Source of the DNA: an uncultured Clostridia bacterium
GTDB lineage: Bacteria; Bacillota; Clostridia; Oscillospirales; Ruminococcaceae
Direction: 5' to 3'
Assembly: GCA_947175045.1 (NCBI GenBank)
Contig: CAMWLH010000004.1
Location: 1-19,879 of the forward strand
Length of the DNA: 19,879 bases
This document shows positions 7,256 through 18,019 of the stretch, one piece after another. Position numbers and translations under genes: made by a program. Below the pieces are notes generated by a model. It did no database searches, was not told where the DNA came from, and saw nothing but the letters and a program-made list of their open reading frames with translations. How positions within the stretch are numbered: the stretch's first letter is position 1; every line of letters starts with the position of its first letter.

Positions 7256-7277
7256 TTTTTCTCCTTATTTTAAATAA

Positions 7278-7350
7278 GTTTTTCGCAACCCGGCTGCGAA
7301 AACTCCGCAAGCTCCGCTTCCGTAGTCTCTTGCGAAAAATTTTCCTGCAA
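7278..7350 (-). repeat. Structured leader element in front of lgt (copy A of GGA-loop family)
   Basis: Perfect 10-base arms (7330-7339 and 7279-7288, TTTTTCGCAA / TTGCGAAAAA on the minus strand) enclose about 41 bases. Inside, GGAAGC (7321-7316) pairs with GTTTTC (7303-7298), leaving a symmetric GGA/GGA internal loop around GCTTGC. A third TTTTCGCA copy at 7301-7294 can compete for the downstream arm. It ends 23 bases before the lgt start. Its outer sequence and open frame resemble the aguB element at 10600-10687. The rest of the 7256-7490 gap holds a terminator and no clear promoter. Confidence 0.6.
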
Positions 7351-7445
7351 GGGCGCTTTGTTGCTTTTTGCTTTGGAAGTCTTAGACCGCTTATTTTTGT
7401 GTCGCTTTGATCAATAAGGTTATTGGCGGCAATTCCTCCTATAAA

Positions 7446-7490: not shown

Positions 7491-7787
7491 TTAAAAACTG
7501 CCTGCCGCGCCCGCAAGAACCGCAAGACCGCATACCGCGCAAAGTGCGCAGGCAAGCATGAGAACGCTGAAAGCAGTGGAAACAATACCAAGTATAAATC
7601 CTACCAAAGCCAGTGTCTTGGAATCGGTATCTTCCCCATTCTTAATACGCTTCAACGCCAAAGCACCGAAAACGATGCCCGCAATAGCCGCCAGCGGAGC
7701 GATATAATCCACATATGGAATAAACGAGCCGGCAATACCGACAATACCACATACAAGCGCTGTGATTGACATATTCTTTGCTGTCAT
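7491..7787 (-). CDS. Small DUF4190-like membrane protein (98 aa)
   Basis: A small integral membrane protein of unknown function. It opens KNMSITALVCGIVGIAGSF, and the hydrophobic stretches at about 6-20 and 29-44 are followed by a polar KRIKNGEDTDSKTLA segment. A further long hydrophobic stretch (about 59-95) is rich in Ala, Cys and Leu. The layout of hydrophobic segment, basic/acidic loop with Lys/Arg-Ile-Lys, then hydrophobic segment is that of DUF4190. The gene has its own near-consensus promoter, a GGTGAGG ribosome site and a terminator, so it is a single-gene unit. It is a paralogue-like partner of the protein at 7988-8221, with which it also shares promoter sequence. Confidence 0.8.
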   Translation of the reverse strand: MTAKNMSITALVCGIVGIAGSFIPYVDYIAPLAAIAGIVFGALALKRIKNGEDTDSKTLALVGFILGIVSTAFSVLMLACALCAVCGLAVLAGAAGSF

Positions 7788-10558: not shown

Positions 10559-10599
10559 AAGAGCGGCGCCCGCCACGATCAACGCTTTGCCCCCGCAGG

Positions 10600-10687
10600 A
10601 ATTTTTCCGCAACAAGCCGAAAAAGCGGAGTGAAACGGAGCTTTCTCGGCGCGGTAGGCGAACGGAGTTCGCCGGTGCGGAAAAATT
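10600..10687 (+). repeat. Three-stem structured element before aguB (copy B of GGA-loop family)
   Basis: A perfect 12-base outer stem, AATTTTTCCGCA (10600-10611) with TGCGGAAAAATT (10676-10687), encloses two hairpins. Hairpin 1 (10616-10650) pairs GCCGAAAAAGC with GCTTTCTCGGC with one mismatch. It continues as GC-GGA-GT-GAA-AC-GGA-GC, so a symmetric GGA/GGA internal loop sits under a GT/AC stem and a GAA loop. Hairpin 2 (10657-10673) is GGCGAAC-GGA-GTTCGCC. It lies between the Nudix stop and the aguB ribosome site and could act as an RNA control element or a palindromic repeat. Confidence 0.65.
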
Positions 10688-10708
10688 TTTCAGATAAGGA
10701 GATTTATA

Positions 10709-11590
10709 ATGCGAAAAATTACAGTTGCCGCCGTGCAGATGTCAATACCCGAAACGCCCGAAAAGTCCGTTGAAAAAGCGGACGGGCTTGTCAGAGAAGC
10801 TGCCGCGAAGGGCGCAAACATCATACTTCTGCCCGAGCTTTTCGAGAATTGGTATTTCTGTCAGGAGCGCCGCTATGAAAGCTATAAGTTGGCACTTCCG
10901 TTGGAGGAGAACCCCGCCGTGAACCATTTTAAAGGTGTGGCGCGGGAATTGGGCGTTGTGCTCCCCGTCAGCTTTTTCGAGCGGGACGTTACCGCGCTCT
11001 ACAACAGCCTTGCAATGATAGACGCGGACGGGACGATACTCGGGGTATACCGCAAAACCCATATCCCCGACGATCATTTTTATCAGGAAAAGTTCTACTT
11101 TACCCCCGGGAACACGGGCTTTAAGGTATGGGATACAAAATTCGGCAAAATAGGAGCAGGGATATGCTGGGATCAGTGGTTTCCCGAGGCGGCTCGCTGC
11201 ATGGCACTTATGGGTGCGGAGCTGCTGCTTTATCCCACCGCGATAGGCAGCGAGCCGATAATCGAGTGCGACAGTATGCCCCACTGGCGGCGCTGTATGC
11301 AGGGACATTCCGCAGCGAACCTCATACCCGTTATAGCCGCCAACCGCACGGGAACAGAGCGGGTAACCCCCGATGACGGCAACTCCCGCCAAAGCAGCTC
11401 TCTTACCTTTTACGGAAGCAGCTTCATTACCGACGGCACCGGCGCTCTGCTTCAAAGCGCCGACAGGGTATCCGACTGCGTTCTGACGCAGGAGTTTGAC
11501 CTTGACGCTATCAAGGAGCTGCGCATGAGCTGGGGCGTTTTCCGCGACAGACGACCCGAGGTCTACGGGCGGCTGGTAAGTGACAAATAA
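10709..11590 (+). CDS. aguB: N-carbamoylputrescine amidase
   Basis: A nitrilase-superfamily enzyme that converts N-carbamoylputrescine to putrescine, CO2 and ammonia. The Glu-Lys-Cys triad is visible: Glu43 in LLPELFENWYF, Lys116 in YRKTHIPDDHFYQEKFYF and Cys153 in GICWDQWFPEAAR. The ENWYF and KTHIPD-YQEKFYF motifs are typical of AguB rather than general amidases. The length of 293 residues is standard and the start ATG at 10709 has AAGGAG upstream. It completes the pathway begun by aguA, 1.1 kb upstream on the same strand, but is separated from the Nudix gene by 150 bases that hold only the structured element at 10600-10687. No strong terminator follows, only an AT-rich hairpin near 11645-11676. 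Confidence 0.94.
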   Translation: MRKITVAAVQMSIPETPEKSVEKADGLVREAAAKGANIILLPELFENWYFCQERRYESYKLALPLEENPAVNHFKGVARELGVVLPVSFFERDVTALYNSLAMIDADGTILGVYRKTHIPDDHFYQEKFYFTPGNTGFKVWDTKFGKIGAGICWDQWFPEAARCMALMGAELLLYPTAIGSEPIIECDSMPHWRRCMQGHSAANLIPVIAANRTGTERVTPDDGNSRQSSSLTFYGSSFITDGTGALLQSADRVSDCVLTQEFDLDAIKELRMSWGVFRDRRPEVYGRLVSDK

Positions 11591-12408: not shown

Positions 12409-13923
12409 TTATGCCACCGAGTAAGCCAATATTGCTGCCGCGTCAATTGCGTTTACGCGTCCGTCGCCGTTGAAATCGCCTATAAACGTGTCTATTGTCA
12501 GATTATTAGTAAGATATCTCAAGAGCAGAGCCGCATCCATCGCGTTGACTGCTTGATTTCCGCTGATGTCTCCCGGTATCTTCGCCGTGCGGTCAATAAC
12601 CACGAAATACCGCCCCGCACCGTAAACATCGAGAGCCGCATTGCCCGACTCGTCGACCCGCCCATAGGAAACATATTCCGCTTTGTTGCGCGATTCGTTG
12701 TAGCGAAGCAGCGTGACAAAACTGCCGCTGTCCGCCGTTCCGACGTTGTATATAAGCTGCGCTCTCATATTGATATTGCCGATATCGAACCCCGCGCCCA
12801 TGCTGCCGCCGACGAGACGCAGGATATCCTGCGGGATACGGTTTGTGTAGTAAAACTGCGGATTTACAATGCTGATATTGCTGTTAGGGTCAGCCAGCCA
12901 TGAGAAACGCATATCTATCGGAACGCTCTCCGAAAGCACAGGCTCGACCTCAGGCACTTCGGGAATATCGGGCTCGGCGGGCTTCTGGGGTTCGGAGGGT
13001 TTAGCGGGCTCGGTCGGCTCGGCGGGTTTAGCGGGAGTATCGGTCACCTCGCTCATGCTCTCGTCATAGTCCGTGTCCGCTTTAGGGATAGCGACGGGAT
13101 TGCTGATGGAATGATCCTTTCTTATCGTCGCGGTGCTCACGCAGAAATAATCGTGCCGCAGCACGGGCTGCGAGCCCACGGGATCGTCCCACGTAACGTC
13201 CACATGATACCATTTATCGCCTATCCGCACCATATTCCACATATGATTTTCGCCGTTGCCCGAGCCTACGACGCATATGCACTGAACGCCTATCGATTGA
13301 CAAAGATACGCAAACGCCTTTGAATATCCCTCACATAGCGCCCTGCCGTTCACCAAAGGTCCGTCGGCTTCGGATTTGTAAACCGGACCGTTAAGAGTAT
13401 ATGTAGTCATATTGACGATAGCGTCGTGCAGCACCTTTACCTGCTTAAATACGTCCGATTCCTTAAGCGCGTCCTCGATTATCGGCGCGGCGGCTTCCTC
13501 TATCTGCGACCGTATGTTTCTGACCTGCGCGGCGGTCCTCGTATAATTGGGATTAACCGTAAGCCAGTTATGCGTGGTGGGATTTCCCGTGCCCGTTGCC
13601 GAGCCGTCCGTATTGAAAAGCTGCGGATTTTCGTATTTCAGCAGCGTCATAACCATTCCCAGAGTATCATCGTTAAGCTTGTATTCCGAAATATCCATGC
13701 CGCTCTCGCTGTTTTTGACAGCGCTGAAAAGCAGCCCGTAAGCCGCCTTCTGATCCTCCGTCAAAAGGGAATAATAATATTTAGACTCATAGTCCTCCAA
13801 TATGCTCGCGCCCGCCGCATAAACCGCGGAATACCTTCCGCCGAGAAGCTCCGTAACAGGCGAAGAAAAAAACGCGAGCGCCGTCAAAAATGCTACAAAA
13901 TAACTCAAAAATCTATGTTTCAT
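12409..13923 (-). CDS. Secreted transglutaminase-like protein with C-terminal dockerin (504 aa)
   Basis: Numbering is from the ATG at 13923, which has GGGAGG 4 bases upstream; a GTG eight codons earlier lacks a site. Residues 1-36 or so form a signal peptide ending near AVYAAGAS. The transglutaminase-like cysteine-protease fold spans about 150-275, with the triad Cys197 in GRALCEGYSKAFAYL, His227 in ENHMWNMV and Asp242 in WYHVDVTWDDP. A Pro/Glu/Lys linker lies at about 297-330, then a roughly 110-residue beta-rich region of unknown type. The end (about 451-504) is a type I dockerin with two calcium-loop repeats, GDISGNQAVNAMDAALLLRYL and GDFNGDGRVNAIDAAAILAY. It is thus predicted to attach to a cohesin, as a cellulosome component that may cut or crosslink protein. 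It follows the membrane protein at 13981 by 57 bases. Confidence 0.92.
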   Translation of the reverse strand: MKHRFLSYFVAFLTALAFFSSPVTELLGGRYSAVYAAGASILEDYESKYYYSLLTEDQKAAYGLLFSAVKNSESGMDISEYKLNDDTLGMVMTLLKYENPQLFNTDGSATGTGNPTTHNWLTVNPNYTRTAAQVRNIRSQIEEAAAPIIEDALKESDVFKQVKVLHDAIVNMTTYTLNGPVYKSEADGPLVNGRALCEGYSKAFAYLCQSIGVQCICVVGSGNGENHMWNMVRIGDKWYHVDVTWDDPVGSQPVLRHDYFCVSTATIRKDHSISNPVAIPKADTDYDESMSEVTDTPAKPAEPTEPAKPSEPQKPAEPDIPEVPEVEPVLSESVPIDMRFSWLADPNSNISIVNPQFYYTNRIPQDILRLVGGSMGAGFDIGNINMRAQLIYNVGTADSGSFVTLLRYNESRNKAEYVSYGRVDESGNAALDVYGAGRYFVVIDRTAKIPGDISGNQAVNAMDAALLLRYLTNNLTIDTFIGDFNGDGRVNAIDAAAILAYSVA

Positions 13924-16181: not shown

Positions 16182-16195
16182 TTTATGCTTTTAAG

Positions 16196-16250
16196 TTATG
16201 CTGACGAGAGGTGAATTATTCAAAAGAATTTCAAAATTCCCCTGCGCGGG
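16196..16250. repeat. Dispersed repeat, apparent empty-site version
   Basis: Bases 16196-16241 match 17733-17778 without gaps at 38 of 46 positions (TTATG-TGAC start, shared end AAAAGAATTTCAAAATTCCC). The next bases CTGCGCGGGC match the sequence that follows the 94-base insertion at 17873 onward (CTGCGTGGGC), so this copy lacks the hairpin block. Confidence 0.65.
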
Positions 16251-16261
16251 CGCTACTCTCA

Positions 16262-17608
16262 TCAGCTTACCGCAATTGCCGAGATATACATAGCCGCCGC
16301 GCCGTCCTTTGACTGCGGAACGATCTTCAGCGTATGTTCACCCTCGCTGTCCAGCGCCGCTATCTCCGCGAACTCGGCGTAATTGCCCCAGCCGCCGCTG
16401 AAATCGGTGTCCAGCGTAGCGACAAGCTCGCCGTCGATATACACGTCAGCCTTTACGGAGTTGCTTACGGTCTTGCCATAAAGCAGCCCGATATTCTTCG
16501 CGGTCACCCTGAACTCTATCCCGTCGTCCTCGGTGAACTGCCCCTCGGAGGATTTCAGCATCCAGTGTCCGTTAAAGCCACCGAAAGCCGCGTCCCTTAC
16601 CATAAACGCGCCGAGAGAAGCAGGCTCGGTATCGGCGGGGGTGAGCAGCTTGGCGTTAAGATACTTGTCGCCGTTTTCTGTGGGCTGTGAGAAATCGCTC
16701 TCCTCCGCGCTTATATTATCGAGATCGTCAATAACGGATTGGAGATAGTTTGTGATAAGATCGGTCAGCAAAGCGTGCCCGGGGATATTGGGGTGAATAT
16801 TGTCGTCTGAGATATCCGTCCACTGAATGTAACCCTTGTCTATAACGTCGAGAATAGCGTTCTTGTAGGAGATCATAGGAATATCGTATCTCTTTACCAC
16901 CTCGCCGTGGTACTCCTGGAAGCTGGTTCCGTTATCCTGTGTCATGGCAATGGTAACTATCGCGGGGCTGCTCTCCGCGAACCACAGCTTTCTCATAAGG
17001 CTTTCATAGGTGATCTTATTCAGCTCGGTGCGCTCCGTGGTGTCGTTTACCGAGAAATCCACGAAAACGATATCGGGGTTCTGCGAGAGCACGTCCGTAT
17101 CGCAGCGGTGAACTCCTATATATGAACCCGTTGCGCCGATACCCGCATTAACATAATTTACGGTCGCGTCGGGGAACTGCTCCTGTATCCAGTTAGCGGT
17201 AAGCCGCGCATAGCACAAGTCGTTGCCCGCGGACGTGCCCTGCGTGATAGATCCTCCGAGGAACGCCGCCGTTACCTCCTCGCCCGCCTGCAGCTTCTTG
17301 AAGAACGCCGCCAGCCTTGCCTGATTACCCACATTATACCTTGAGTTTGCTATCATTGTGGGGGTAAGCTCCCCGCCGAGGGTGTAGGGTATCTCCTCTA
17401 TCTCCTCCTGCGGCTCGCTCTCGGTATCCGACGTCTCGGGAACATCGTCCGATGCATTGCTGTCGGGAGCGCTTGAGATATCGGGCGTACTCTCAGACGC
17501 GCTGCTGTCGGGAGCGCCCGACCCGCTGTCGGATACCGTGTCGTTTTTGCAGGCTGTCAGCGAAAGCACAAGCGCCGCAACCGCCGCAATGGCAATAAAT
17601 TTCTTCAT
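16262..17608 (-). CDS. SGNH/GDSL hydrolase lipoprotein, likely carbohydrate esterase (448 aa)
   Basis: A surface lipoprotein of the SGNH hydrolase fold, in this setting probably a polysaccharide deacetylase or esterase. Numbering is from the ATG at 17608, which has GGAG 8 bases upstream; the in-frame ATG at 17632 has no site. The signal peptide ends in lipobox LTA-Cys20. About 22-75 is a Ser/Asp/Glu-rich spacer. The SGNH domain covers about 85-305: block I AAFLGGSITQG with nucleophile Ser120, block II NAGIGATGSYIG, block III FSVND with Asn188, and block V DDNIHPNIPGH with Asp269 and His272. A beta-rich C-terminal region (about 315-448) contains VYIDGELVATLDTDFSGGWG and may bind carbohydrate. 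All catalytic residues are present. Substrate unknown. Confidence 0.88.
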   Translation of the reverse strand: MKKFIAIAAVAALVLSLTACKNDTVSDSGSGAPDSSASESTPDISSAPDSNASDDVPETSDTESEPQEEIEEIPYTLGGELTPTMIANSRYNVGNQARLAAFFKKLQAGEEVTAAFLGGSITQGTSAGNDLCYARLTANWIQEQFPDATVNYVNAGIGATGSYIGVHRCDTDVLSQNPDIVFVDFSVNDTTERTELNKITYESLMRKLWFAESSPAIVTIAMTQDNGTSFQEYHGEVVKRYDIPMISYKNAILDVIDKGYIQWTDISDDNIHPNIPGHALLTDLITNYLQSVIDDLDNISAEESDFSQPTENGDKYLNAKLLTPADTEPASLGAFMVRDAAFGGFNGHWMLKSSEGQFTEDDGIEFRVTAKNIGLLYGKTVSNSVKADVYIDGELVATLDTDFSGGWGNYAEFAEIAALDSEGEHTLKIVPQSKDGAAAMYISAIAVS

Positions 17609-17657: not shown

Positions 17658-17696
17658 TACAGTCTTTAAAAATATTTACCCAAGCTGTTATGCTGT

Positions 17697-17778
17697 TAAG
17701 ATATGTTGATGAGGAGCTGTAATGCGGTTAAATTATGTTGACAAGGAGCAAATGATTTAAAAGAATTTCAAAATTCCC
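17697..17778. repeat. Tandem and dispersed repeat upstream of the SGNH gene
   Basis: Two diverged neighbouring units begin GTTAAGATATGTTGATGAGGAGC (about 17697) and GTTAAATTATGTTGACAAGGAGC (about 17728). The second continues to 17778 and is the counterpart of 16196-16241 (38 of 46 bases equal). The SGNH gene is therefore bracketed by related repeats. Confidence 0.6.
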
Positions 17779-17870
17779 GCACTCACTCTCGCTCCACTTC
17801 GTTCCGCTGCGAGCGACTGCGGGAACCGGTCATCGTTTGCCATTCGGCAAACTTGACCTTTTTGAAATTC
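17763..17870 (-). repeat. Three-stem palindromic element (copy C of GGA-loop family)
   Basis: Perfect 11-base arms GAATTTCAAAA (17763-17773) and TTTTGAAATTC (17860-17870) enclose two structures. Structure 1 has CCCGCA (17776-17781) with TGCGGG (17818-17823) and an inner CTCGC/GCGAG; its minus-strand tip reads GC-GGA-AC-GAA-GT-GGA-GC (17807-17791). Structure 2 is GGTCA/TGACC (17828-17832, 17854-17858) with an inner TTTGCC/GGCAAA. AAATTCCC occurs at both ends (17771-17778 and 17865-17872). On the minus strand TTTT follows the outer arm, so it might also end the GH26-like transcript. Confidence 0.65.
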
Positions 17871-17873
17871 CCC

Positions 17874-18019
17874 TGCGTGGGCTGTTTGCGGATTAGATTT
17901 TTATGCCCCCTAATGCGTGGGCTGTTTGCGGCTTGGGTTTGTATACCCCCTAATGTGTGGGCTGTTTGCAGCTTGGGTTTGTATGCCCCCAATGCGCGGA
18001 CAATTTGCGGCTGTTTACC
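17874..18019. repeat. 40-bp tandem repeat downstream of the GH26-like gene
   Basis: Units start at 17874, 17914 and 17954 (40, 40 and 39 bases), with a degenerate fourth from 17993. The shared core is GCGTGGGCTGTTTGCGG, a TTGGGTTT-type middle, then GCCCCC. The period is not a multiple of three and no start or ribosome site is seen, so it is treated as non-coding. It fills the space right up to the stop codon of the GH26-like gene. No gene is found in 17609-18021. Confidence 0.85.

Follow-up and report, generated by a model that had tools for sequence, protein, structure and literature searches.

The elements reported here can be placed, as a new variant, among the small dispersed structured repeats. 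BOX, RUP and SPRITE repeats of Streptococcus pneumoniae are small, modular, structured intergenic repeats dispersed in many copies and, according to PMC3049150, are over-represented between convergent genes. Our elements share this general build, but, compared by description, they differ in context: no copy of types A and C (below) lies between convergent genes, nearly all are in sense direction, and most end in a Shine-Dalgarno sequence (SD) beside a start codon. REPIN/REP sequences and their RAYT enzymes (PMC3116915) offer another likeness, dispersed hairpins with compensatory changes, whereas here a three-way junction has an SD behind it, and the Y1 transposase has no match in the second species studied and only a fragment in the first. 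ERIC and Correia elements are MITE-like repeats that, once part of an mRNA, change how it is processed or how stable it is; the excerpted descriptions (PMC10969869, PMC3049150) report RNase cleavage effects but no element that supplies an SD. The GNA mini-hairpin DNA d(GCGAAGC) (PMC4686876) has the same compact motif as the RY-GNA-RY tip of our elements; the difference is that the tip here occurs naturally, varies in length and belongs to an element dispersed in a genome. A literature search by titles and the beginnings of abstracts returned no paper on such elements in this group, which is not proof that none exists.

The window, by which we mean the whole stretch of 19,879 nucleotides analyzed from an uncultured, gut-type bacterium of the Ruminococcaceae, contains three elements (A, B and C, Table 1) that are members of one large dispersed family. 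Most listed copies have in common a motif 5′ of the outer stem that is mostly GCCCACGCAGG-like elsewhere (versus GATCAACGCTTTGCCCCCGCAGG at element A), the outer stem itself (P1) and an inner hairpin tipped by a run of RYGNA units. Type A has two inner hairpins and forms a three-way junction, type C has one hairpin, and type B has another outer stem. An initial annotation of the window had described the tip hairpins; it included neither the second hairpin (P3), which makes element A a three-way junction, nor the SD of aguB directly after the outer stem. Fold z-scores are -2.45 for element A, -5.43 for element B and only -1.36 for element C, the lgt copy.

Table 1. Features of the window, with positions counted from its first nucleotide.
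Feature	Position	Strand	Basis and remarks
Upstream module GATCAACGCTTTGCCCCCGCAGG	10577..10599	+	5′ of outer stem; precedes most listed A/C copies
Element A, three-way junction	10598..10691	+	Fold; 38-copy alignment with covariation; R1 match G000:C4:10590-10700
Element A, outer stem P1	about 10598-10611 / 10676-10691	+	Fold
Element A, hairpin P2	10616..10650	+	Tip GC-GGA-GT-GAA-AC-GGA-GC at 10625-10641
Element A, hairpin P3, GGCGAAC-GGA-GTTCGCC	10657..10673	+	Sequence, fold, covariation
SD AAGGAG	10696..10701	+	3′ end of cassette, directly after outer stem; sequence and context test
aguB (name from the initial annotation)	10709..11590	+	Gene downstream of element A; start 10709; relatives found
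Element C, one-hairpin type, leader of lgt (name from the initial annotation)	7263..7353	-	SD 7261-7266, start codon 7255
Element B	17755..17880	-	Outer stem GAATTTCAAAA..TTTTGAAATTC (arms 17763-17773 / 17860-17871), two hairpins, RYGNA tip GC-GGA-AC-GAA-GT-GGA-GC on the minus strand; start codon not adjoining
Three tandem 40-bp units, GCCCACGCA-like motifs	17874..17993	-	Upstream of element B; repeat search
Repeat of element B flank, outer-stem-only palindrome GGGAATTTTGAAATTC without inner hairpins	16185..16241	-	Repeat search, fold

The window has several further features. Tandem units of about 40 bp lie on both sides of element B (17681-17760 and 17874-17993), GCCCACGCATTAGGGGG-like upstream and GCTCCTCGTCAACATAA-like downstream. 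The outer-stem-only palindrome may be a minimal form or remnant of element B or, alternatively, a precursor; at 16185-16270 (minus strand) this B-like outer stem without hairpins lies between GCTGATGAGAG / CTCTCGTCAGC inverted repeats. A protein encoded at 12409-13923 (minus strand) carries two C-terminal repeats (GDISGNQAVNAMD.. and GDFNGDGRVNAID..) that we take to be dockerin-like, and the large secreted proteins of the window presumably resemble glycoside hydrolases.

In the fold of the tip, RY dinucleotides from facing units form pairs that alternate with GNA/GNA internal loops, and a GNA triloop, mostly GAA, closes the end. The stacking of these loops resembles the zipper-like (GGA)2 motif known from the TGGAA repeats of human satellite DNA. 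Sequences and folds of elements A and B bear out the initial annotation, which had reported a shared GGA/GAA/GGA tip with a compensated change in its inner pair, and the compensation holds generally: across 44 distinct odd-length tips, RY pairs are Watson-Crick complementary in 86/103 cases, with G.U in another 12, as against a mean of 45% and a maximum of 61% complementarity in 1000 shuffles. Among RY pairs with at least one side not GC, 29/46 are complementary, versus 11% when shuffled. The lgt leader, put forward as a third example, does contain both GGA, but pairing of its innermost GC..GC would leave a loop of two bases, so that the tip is degenerate and the example not a clean one. Runs of at least three RYGNA units number 84 in 356 kb of the bacterium's own genome (G000), a sequence set chosen for its elements, versus 2 in the reversed sequence and 5 in the block-shuffled one. 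The flanking N of GNA in G000 tips is G in 67 cases, A in 23, C in 18 and T in 10.

In the G000 alignments, two-sided changes occur in 16/25 pairs of type A, 11/27 of type C and 11/34 of type B. At the joints of the three-way junction, P2 and P3 are most often separated by A or GA, and G, GG or GT precedes P1. Paired positions hold more G.U than A.C in all four alignments (50:13, 94:16, 44:8 and 37:5), an excess that is weaker once the two commonest G.U pairs are removed (25:13, 33:16, 23:8 and 17:5) and that was counted on structures which themselves favour G.U. As had been claimed, GGA stands on the sense strand of the neighbouring genes in all three window elements. Together, the G.U excess and the strand-specific GNA loops suggest that it is the sense strand that folds, either as RNA or as single-stranded DNA, which agrees with the sense-strand structure of the initial annotation.

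We searched for further copies in G000, a draft of 2.55 Mb in 443 contigs that is 78% complete. With blastn, the three elements gave at least 55 (E ≤ 10), at least 48 and at least 46 (both E ≤ 1) matches. The upstream arm of A/C, searched as an exact pattern, had 0 matches in the genome contigs, so distribution was studied with covariance models for types A (R1), B (R2) and C (R3). Their alignments come from 356 kb of G000 stretches, window included, and hold 38 A-type copies (out of 41 whose 3′ end was recognised, the tandem duplicates being omitted), 19 C-type and 36 B-type copies; 25/93 raw matches, in which no 3′ end could be recognised, stayed out of the alignments. The models found at least 84 (R1, E ≤ 0.001), 132 (R3, E ≤ 0.01) and 86 (R2, E ≤ 0.01) matches. 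Counted once each, these occupy at least 248 places, spread over 148 contigs and including a few matches that are weak or partial. By comparison, 20 unselected long contigs (285 kb) hold 11 R1, 3 R2 and 8 R3 matches at E ≤ 0.01; an assembly that breaks at repeats probably leaves its long contigs poor in elements, and this sample is excluded from any density estimate. The window has no Rfam overlap at the gathering threshold, the level at which B and C were covered, and at E ≤ 1 Rfam 15 returned only a tRNA (in L116) for loci L001, L116, L118 and L124, one of which lies around element A.

Some G000 cassettes are duplicated in tandem, in two to three copies (L031:864-1373, L057:3241-3568, L040:1992-2280 and C95:7084-7294 in L079). 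In these four sets the SD is found on the last copy and the earlier copies are without one; two of the four have AAATCATTT at the corresponding place of the earlier copies.

Copies are strongly oriented with respect to genes. Gene calls were made with our own script, which in the window agrees with the long ORFs and missed the small ORF 7491-7787. Dropping 7 antisense matches after inspection (double matches of palindromic C copies) reduced the A/C set from 93 to 86 elements, 14 of them without a called downstream gene. Among the other 72, 71 are sense and 1 is antisense to the gene downstream; the start codon lies within 30 nt of the copy in 49/61 cases with a known end, and none falls between convergent genes. 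No copy of the A/C or B sets lies inside a called gene in the G000 sequence examined. Type B is related to A/C but lies mostly away from start codons: 33 of 41 copies are sense and 8 antisense, and by a similar count only 4/33 are within 11 nt of a start. The 3′ end of type B and of some A copies is a module, AAATCATTTGCTCC, without an SD. A role as a 3′ element, which the initial annotation had also allowed, suits A/C poorly because most abut start codons, and may hold for B.

Matches to R1 are confined to one genus among the genomes compared. They occur in 8/41 genomes including the bacterium's own, all congeneric (8/25, versus 0/16 from other genera); among the best 18 candidates per genome in 197 genomes of the family, at least 3 of them from the same genus, R1 recovered its own genome only, a weak negative. 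As a second species we took G018, a 99% complete congener, in 40 stretches of 20 kb (0.80 Mb), 39 of them picked regardless of element places, with 707 genes, 405 of which have at least 60 nt upstream. Of 36 R1 matches, the 30 with E ≤ 0.014 entered the context count (6 above this value were omitted): 29/30 are sense, the start is within 22 nt in 26/29, and one lies between convergent genes. A model-free search found an outer stem scoring at least 11 just before the start in 85/405 genes, versus 4/405 after letter shuffling. Of these 85 stems, 61 form a GCAAAT..ATTTGC family and 24 fall outside it, some being plainly other inverted repeats; the minimum-free-energy structure is a three-way junction in 65/85, with P1 arms of 12 bp at the median.

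The G018 family differs from G000 in stem sequences and has the same architecture, although the three-unit RYGNA tip is rare in it (5/61). An alignment of 26 G018 copies, which was drawn from R1-match loci and fitted to R1 and to that extent favours the structure, has 98.4% paired cells, versus 78.8% when shuffled and 35-50% in slid controls; two-sided changes occur in 20/25 pairs, and 0/500 shuffles match the observed pairing. The initial annotation is supported by many further copies in G000, a strand bias of 71 to 1 for A/C, covariation in the G000 alignments and, independently, in G018, and the lack of an Rfam match in the searches run.

Other repeats occur within the elements of both species. 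Several G000 elements (L056:3053-3198, C33:4774-4919 in L077, C16:1055 in L024, C88:5984 in L104 and C3:2793-2974 in L021) carry within their hairpins an insertion of a second palindromic repeat, about AAGTTTTGCGCAA..TTGCGCAAAACTT. In G018 a different, GC-rich repeat with GGCGGTCAC or its complement lies in the P2 region of several copies, upstream of C20:51788, C17:90470, C1:9816, C27:171204 and C20:130763. Other repeats thus seem to land in the element tips.

The SD belongs, by several measures, with the element. In 60 G018 element genes with a recognised SD the stretch from P1 to the SD is conserved, far more than in 133 other genes: T stands at -7 in 57, A at -2 in 54 and T at -1 in 54 of the 60. 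The context WARAT(A/C)AGGAG is found in 46/85 element genes versus 8/297 others in G018, and in 25/53 versus 9/123 in G000; a looser form occurs in 51/61 of the G018 GCAAAT family. The SD is also predicted to be more exposed, with a median unpaired probability of 0.58 in element genes (n = 54) versus 0.39 in others (n = 111). The SD and spacer therefore appear, on this sequence evidence, to be conserved with the element in the A/C types and the G018 family. A target preference could mimic an element-borne SD, since the element-free G018 site before yebC itself reads TTCAGATAAGGAG.

We also asked how far positions are shared between species. Among 66 ortholog pairs in the sequence sampled from G000 and G018, a stem is present in both species in 3, in G000 only in 7, in G018 only in 10 and in neither in 46 (Fisher's exact test, P = 0.40), a test too small to exclude some shared positions; including the C322 copy, which is just under threshold, gives 4/7/9/46 (P = 0.21), and adding lgt as well 4/8/9/45 (P = 0.23). 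Both species have a member at aguB and at the genes of C322 and C187, and in one of the three shared pairs the G018 stem is of another kind.

Syntenic sites without the element occur in both directions. Of 10 relatives examined at aguB, two (G014 and G020) share the upstream gene, which we take to be NUDIX-like and which directly precedes aguB there with no element, and G018 has a different member of the element superfamily at the site; in the other seven no element was seen by eye, the upstream sequence being another one and, in G024, partly N. The locus of a gene that we take to be yebC was recovered from 11/12 genomes, with the same upstream gene in 8, and by eye the element is found in 0/11 relatives; the G024 gap has two small hairpins of another kind. 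In the reverse case, 152 nt with an element precede the gene at C17:102772 in G018, where the corresponding G000 gap (C151) is 1 nt. The mostly unshared positions and element-free syntenic sites suggest that copies spread as insertions, and arrival after the species split argues, at most sites, against a leader kept by descent.

Several properties are those of a MITE. The P1 arms are inverted repeats that enclose about 90-150 nt in most listed copies, with no coding capacity as judged by size only, and the elements are dispersed over the genome and polymorphic for insertion between species. No target-site duplication was found with one genome per species and relatives' flanks too diverged, and no mobilising gene was found either.

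By sequence, then, we document dispersal, orientation, position, covarying structure, an element-linked SD context and element-free sites in relatives, and together these look like a small mobile element taking over the start regions of genes. Our preferred reading, to which we give a probability of roughly 0.6, is a dispersed, MITE-like, non-coding element consisting of a structured leader that ends in its own SD and inserted in sense direction before start codons. Transcripts of type C would fold into one hairpin and those of type A and most G018 copies into a three-way junction, and the A/C types and the G018 family would end in a spacer and SD of their own, T/A-rich and then ARAT-AAGGAG. 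Copies would be moved by an enzyme acting in trans and would insert between genes, in sense, directly before start codons, so that the stem sits about 15-23 nt upstream of the start and the downstream gene (here aguB and lgt) would be translated from the ribosome-binding site of the element. A usable site at its end may explain why such insertions are tolerated or favoured. The stem would keep the SD open and/or protect or define the downstream mRNA, which we favour over its main rival, the needs of transposition. The initial annotation had posed an RNA leader and a palindromic mobile repeat as alternatives; the evidence points to both at once, a dispersed insertion with a transcript that would form a structured leader carrying an SD.

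The main rival holds that these are REPIN-like single-strand-DNA elements whose structure is kept for transposition only, with SD-adjacent places reflecting target choice and purifying selection. This is unlikely but has points in its favour: hairpins with GNA loops, strand-specific here, are very stable in DNA (PMC4686876), compensatory changes are common in REPINs (PMC3116915), other repeats are nested in some tips, and G006 and G020, both with R1 matches, have Y1 transposase matches. However, the Y1 transposase (PF01797) has no match in G018, which is 99% complete and element-rich, or in G021, G023 and G024; G000 has only an interrupted fragment, and G008 and G015 have matches to it but none to R1. 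A RAYT enzyme is unlikely as the mobiliser, although two element-bearing genomes have one, and the element-linked SD context and exposure of the SD would need another explanation.

That the elements are instead a host regulon, in which a conserved cis-regulatory leader is read by one trans-acting factor (CsrA-like or another RNA-binding protein) that coordinates many genes, we consider improbable. A fixed place before start codons and a sense-strand structure agree with it, as do the presence of csrA and the three genes at which both species have a member, but positions are mostly unshared between species and the element is absent from syntenic relatives. By eye the downstream genes look unrelated (aguB, lgt, yebC and an rnc-like gene, tentative names in part taken from the initial annotation). 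The leader motif bound by CsrA is ANGGA in hairpin loops. In the G018 family ANGGA lies inside P1 in 9/61 members and any GGA in 38/61, and the conserved letters of GNA leave N variable, which speaks against CsrA as the general reader that the initial annotation had in mind. The gene itself, csrA, is present in 8/8 genomes searched, including G014 and G020, which each have a single R1 match, so its absence cannot be used as an argument. Finally, a SPRITE-like transcription terminator or attenuator, suggested by at least five T in the 13 nt around the P1 3′ end in 52/68 A/C copies of G000 (T partly within the stem), is very improbable, since the long T-run is not kept in G018 (longest run at most 3 in the 10 nt after P1 in 51/61 copies, a different stretch and hence a rough comparison) and A/C copies lie before start codons, none between convergent genes.

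A bolder extension of the preferred reading, which we offer tentatively, is a class of mobile translation-start cassettes that took the place of native ribosome-binding sites. Some 9% of a species' genes (61/707 sampled in G018) might then be translated from copies of one RNA architecture, which differs between species by compensated changes. A conserved fold with very different stem sequences is in any case a well-constrained RNA architecture without a match to Rfam 15 in the searches run. Small bacterial repeats are usually viewed as passengers between genes, with effects on the processing or decay of mRNA at most. Should the ribosome-binding site come from the cassettes, a mobile element would have changed how translation starts at many genes of one genus, and every insertion with an element-free counterpart in a relative would be a natural before-and-after experiment.
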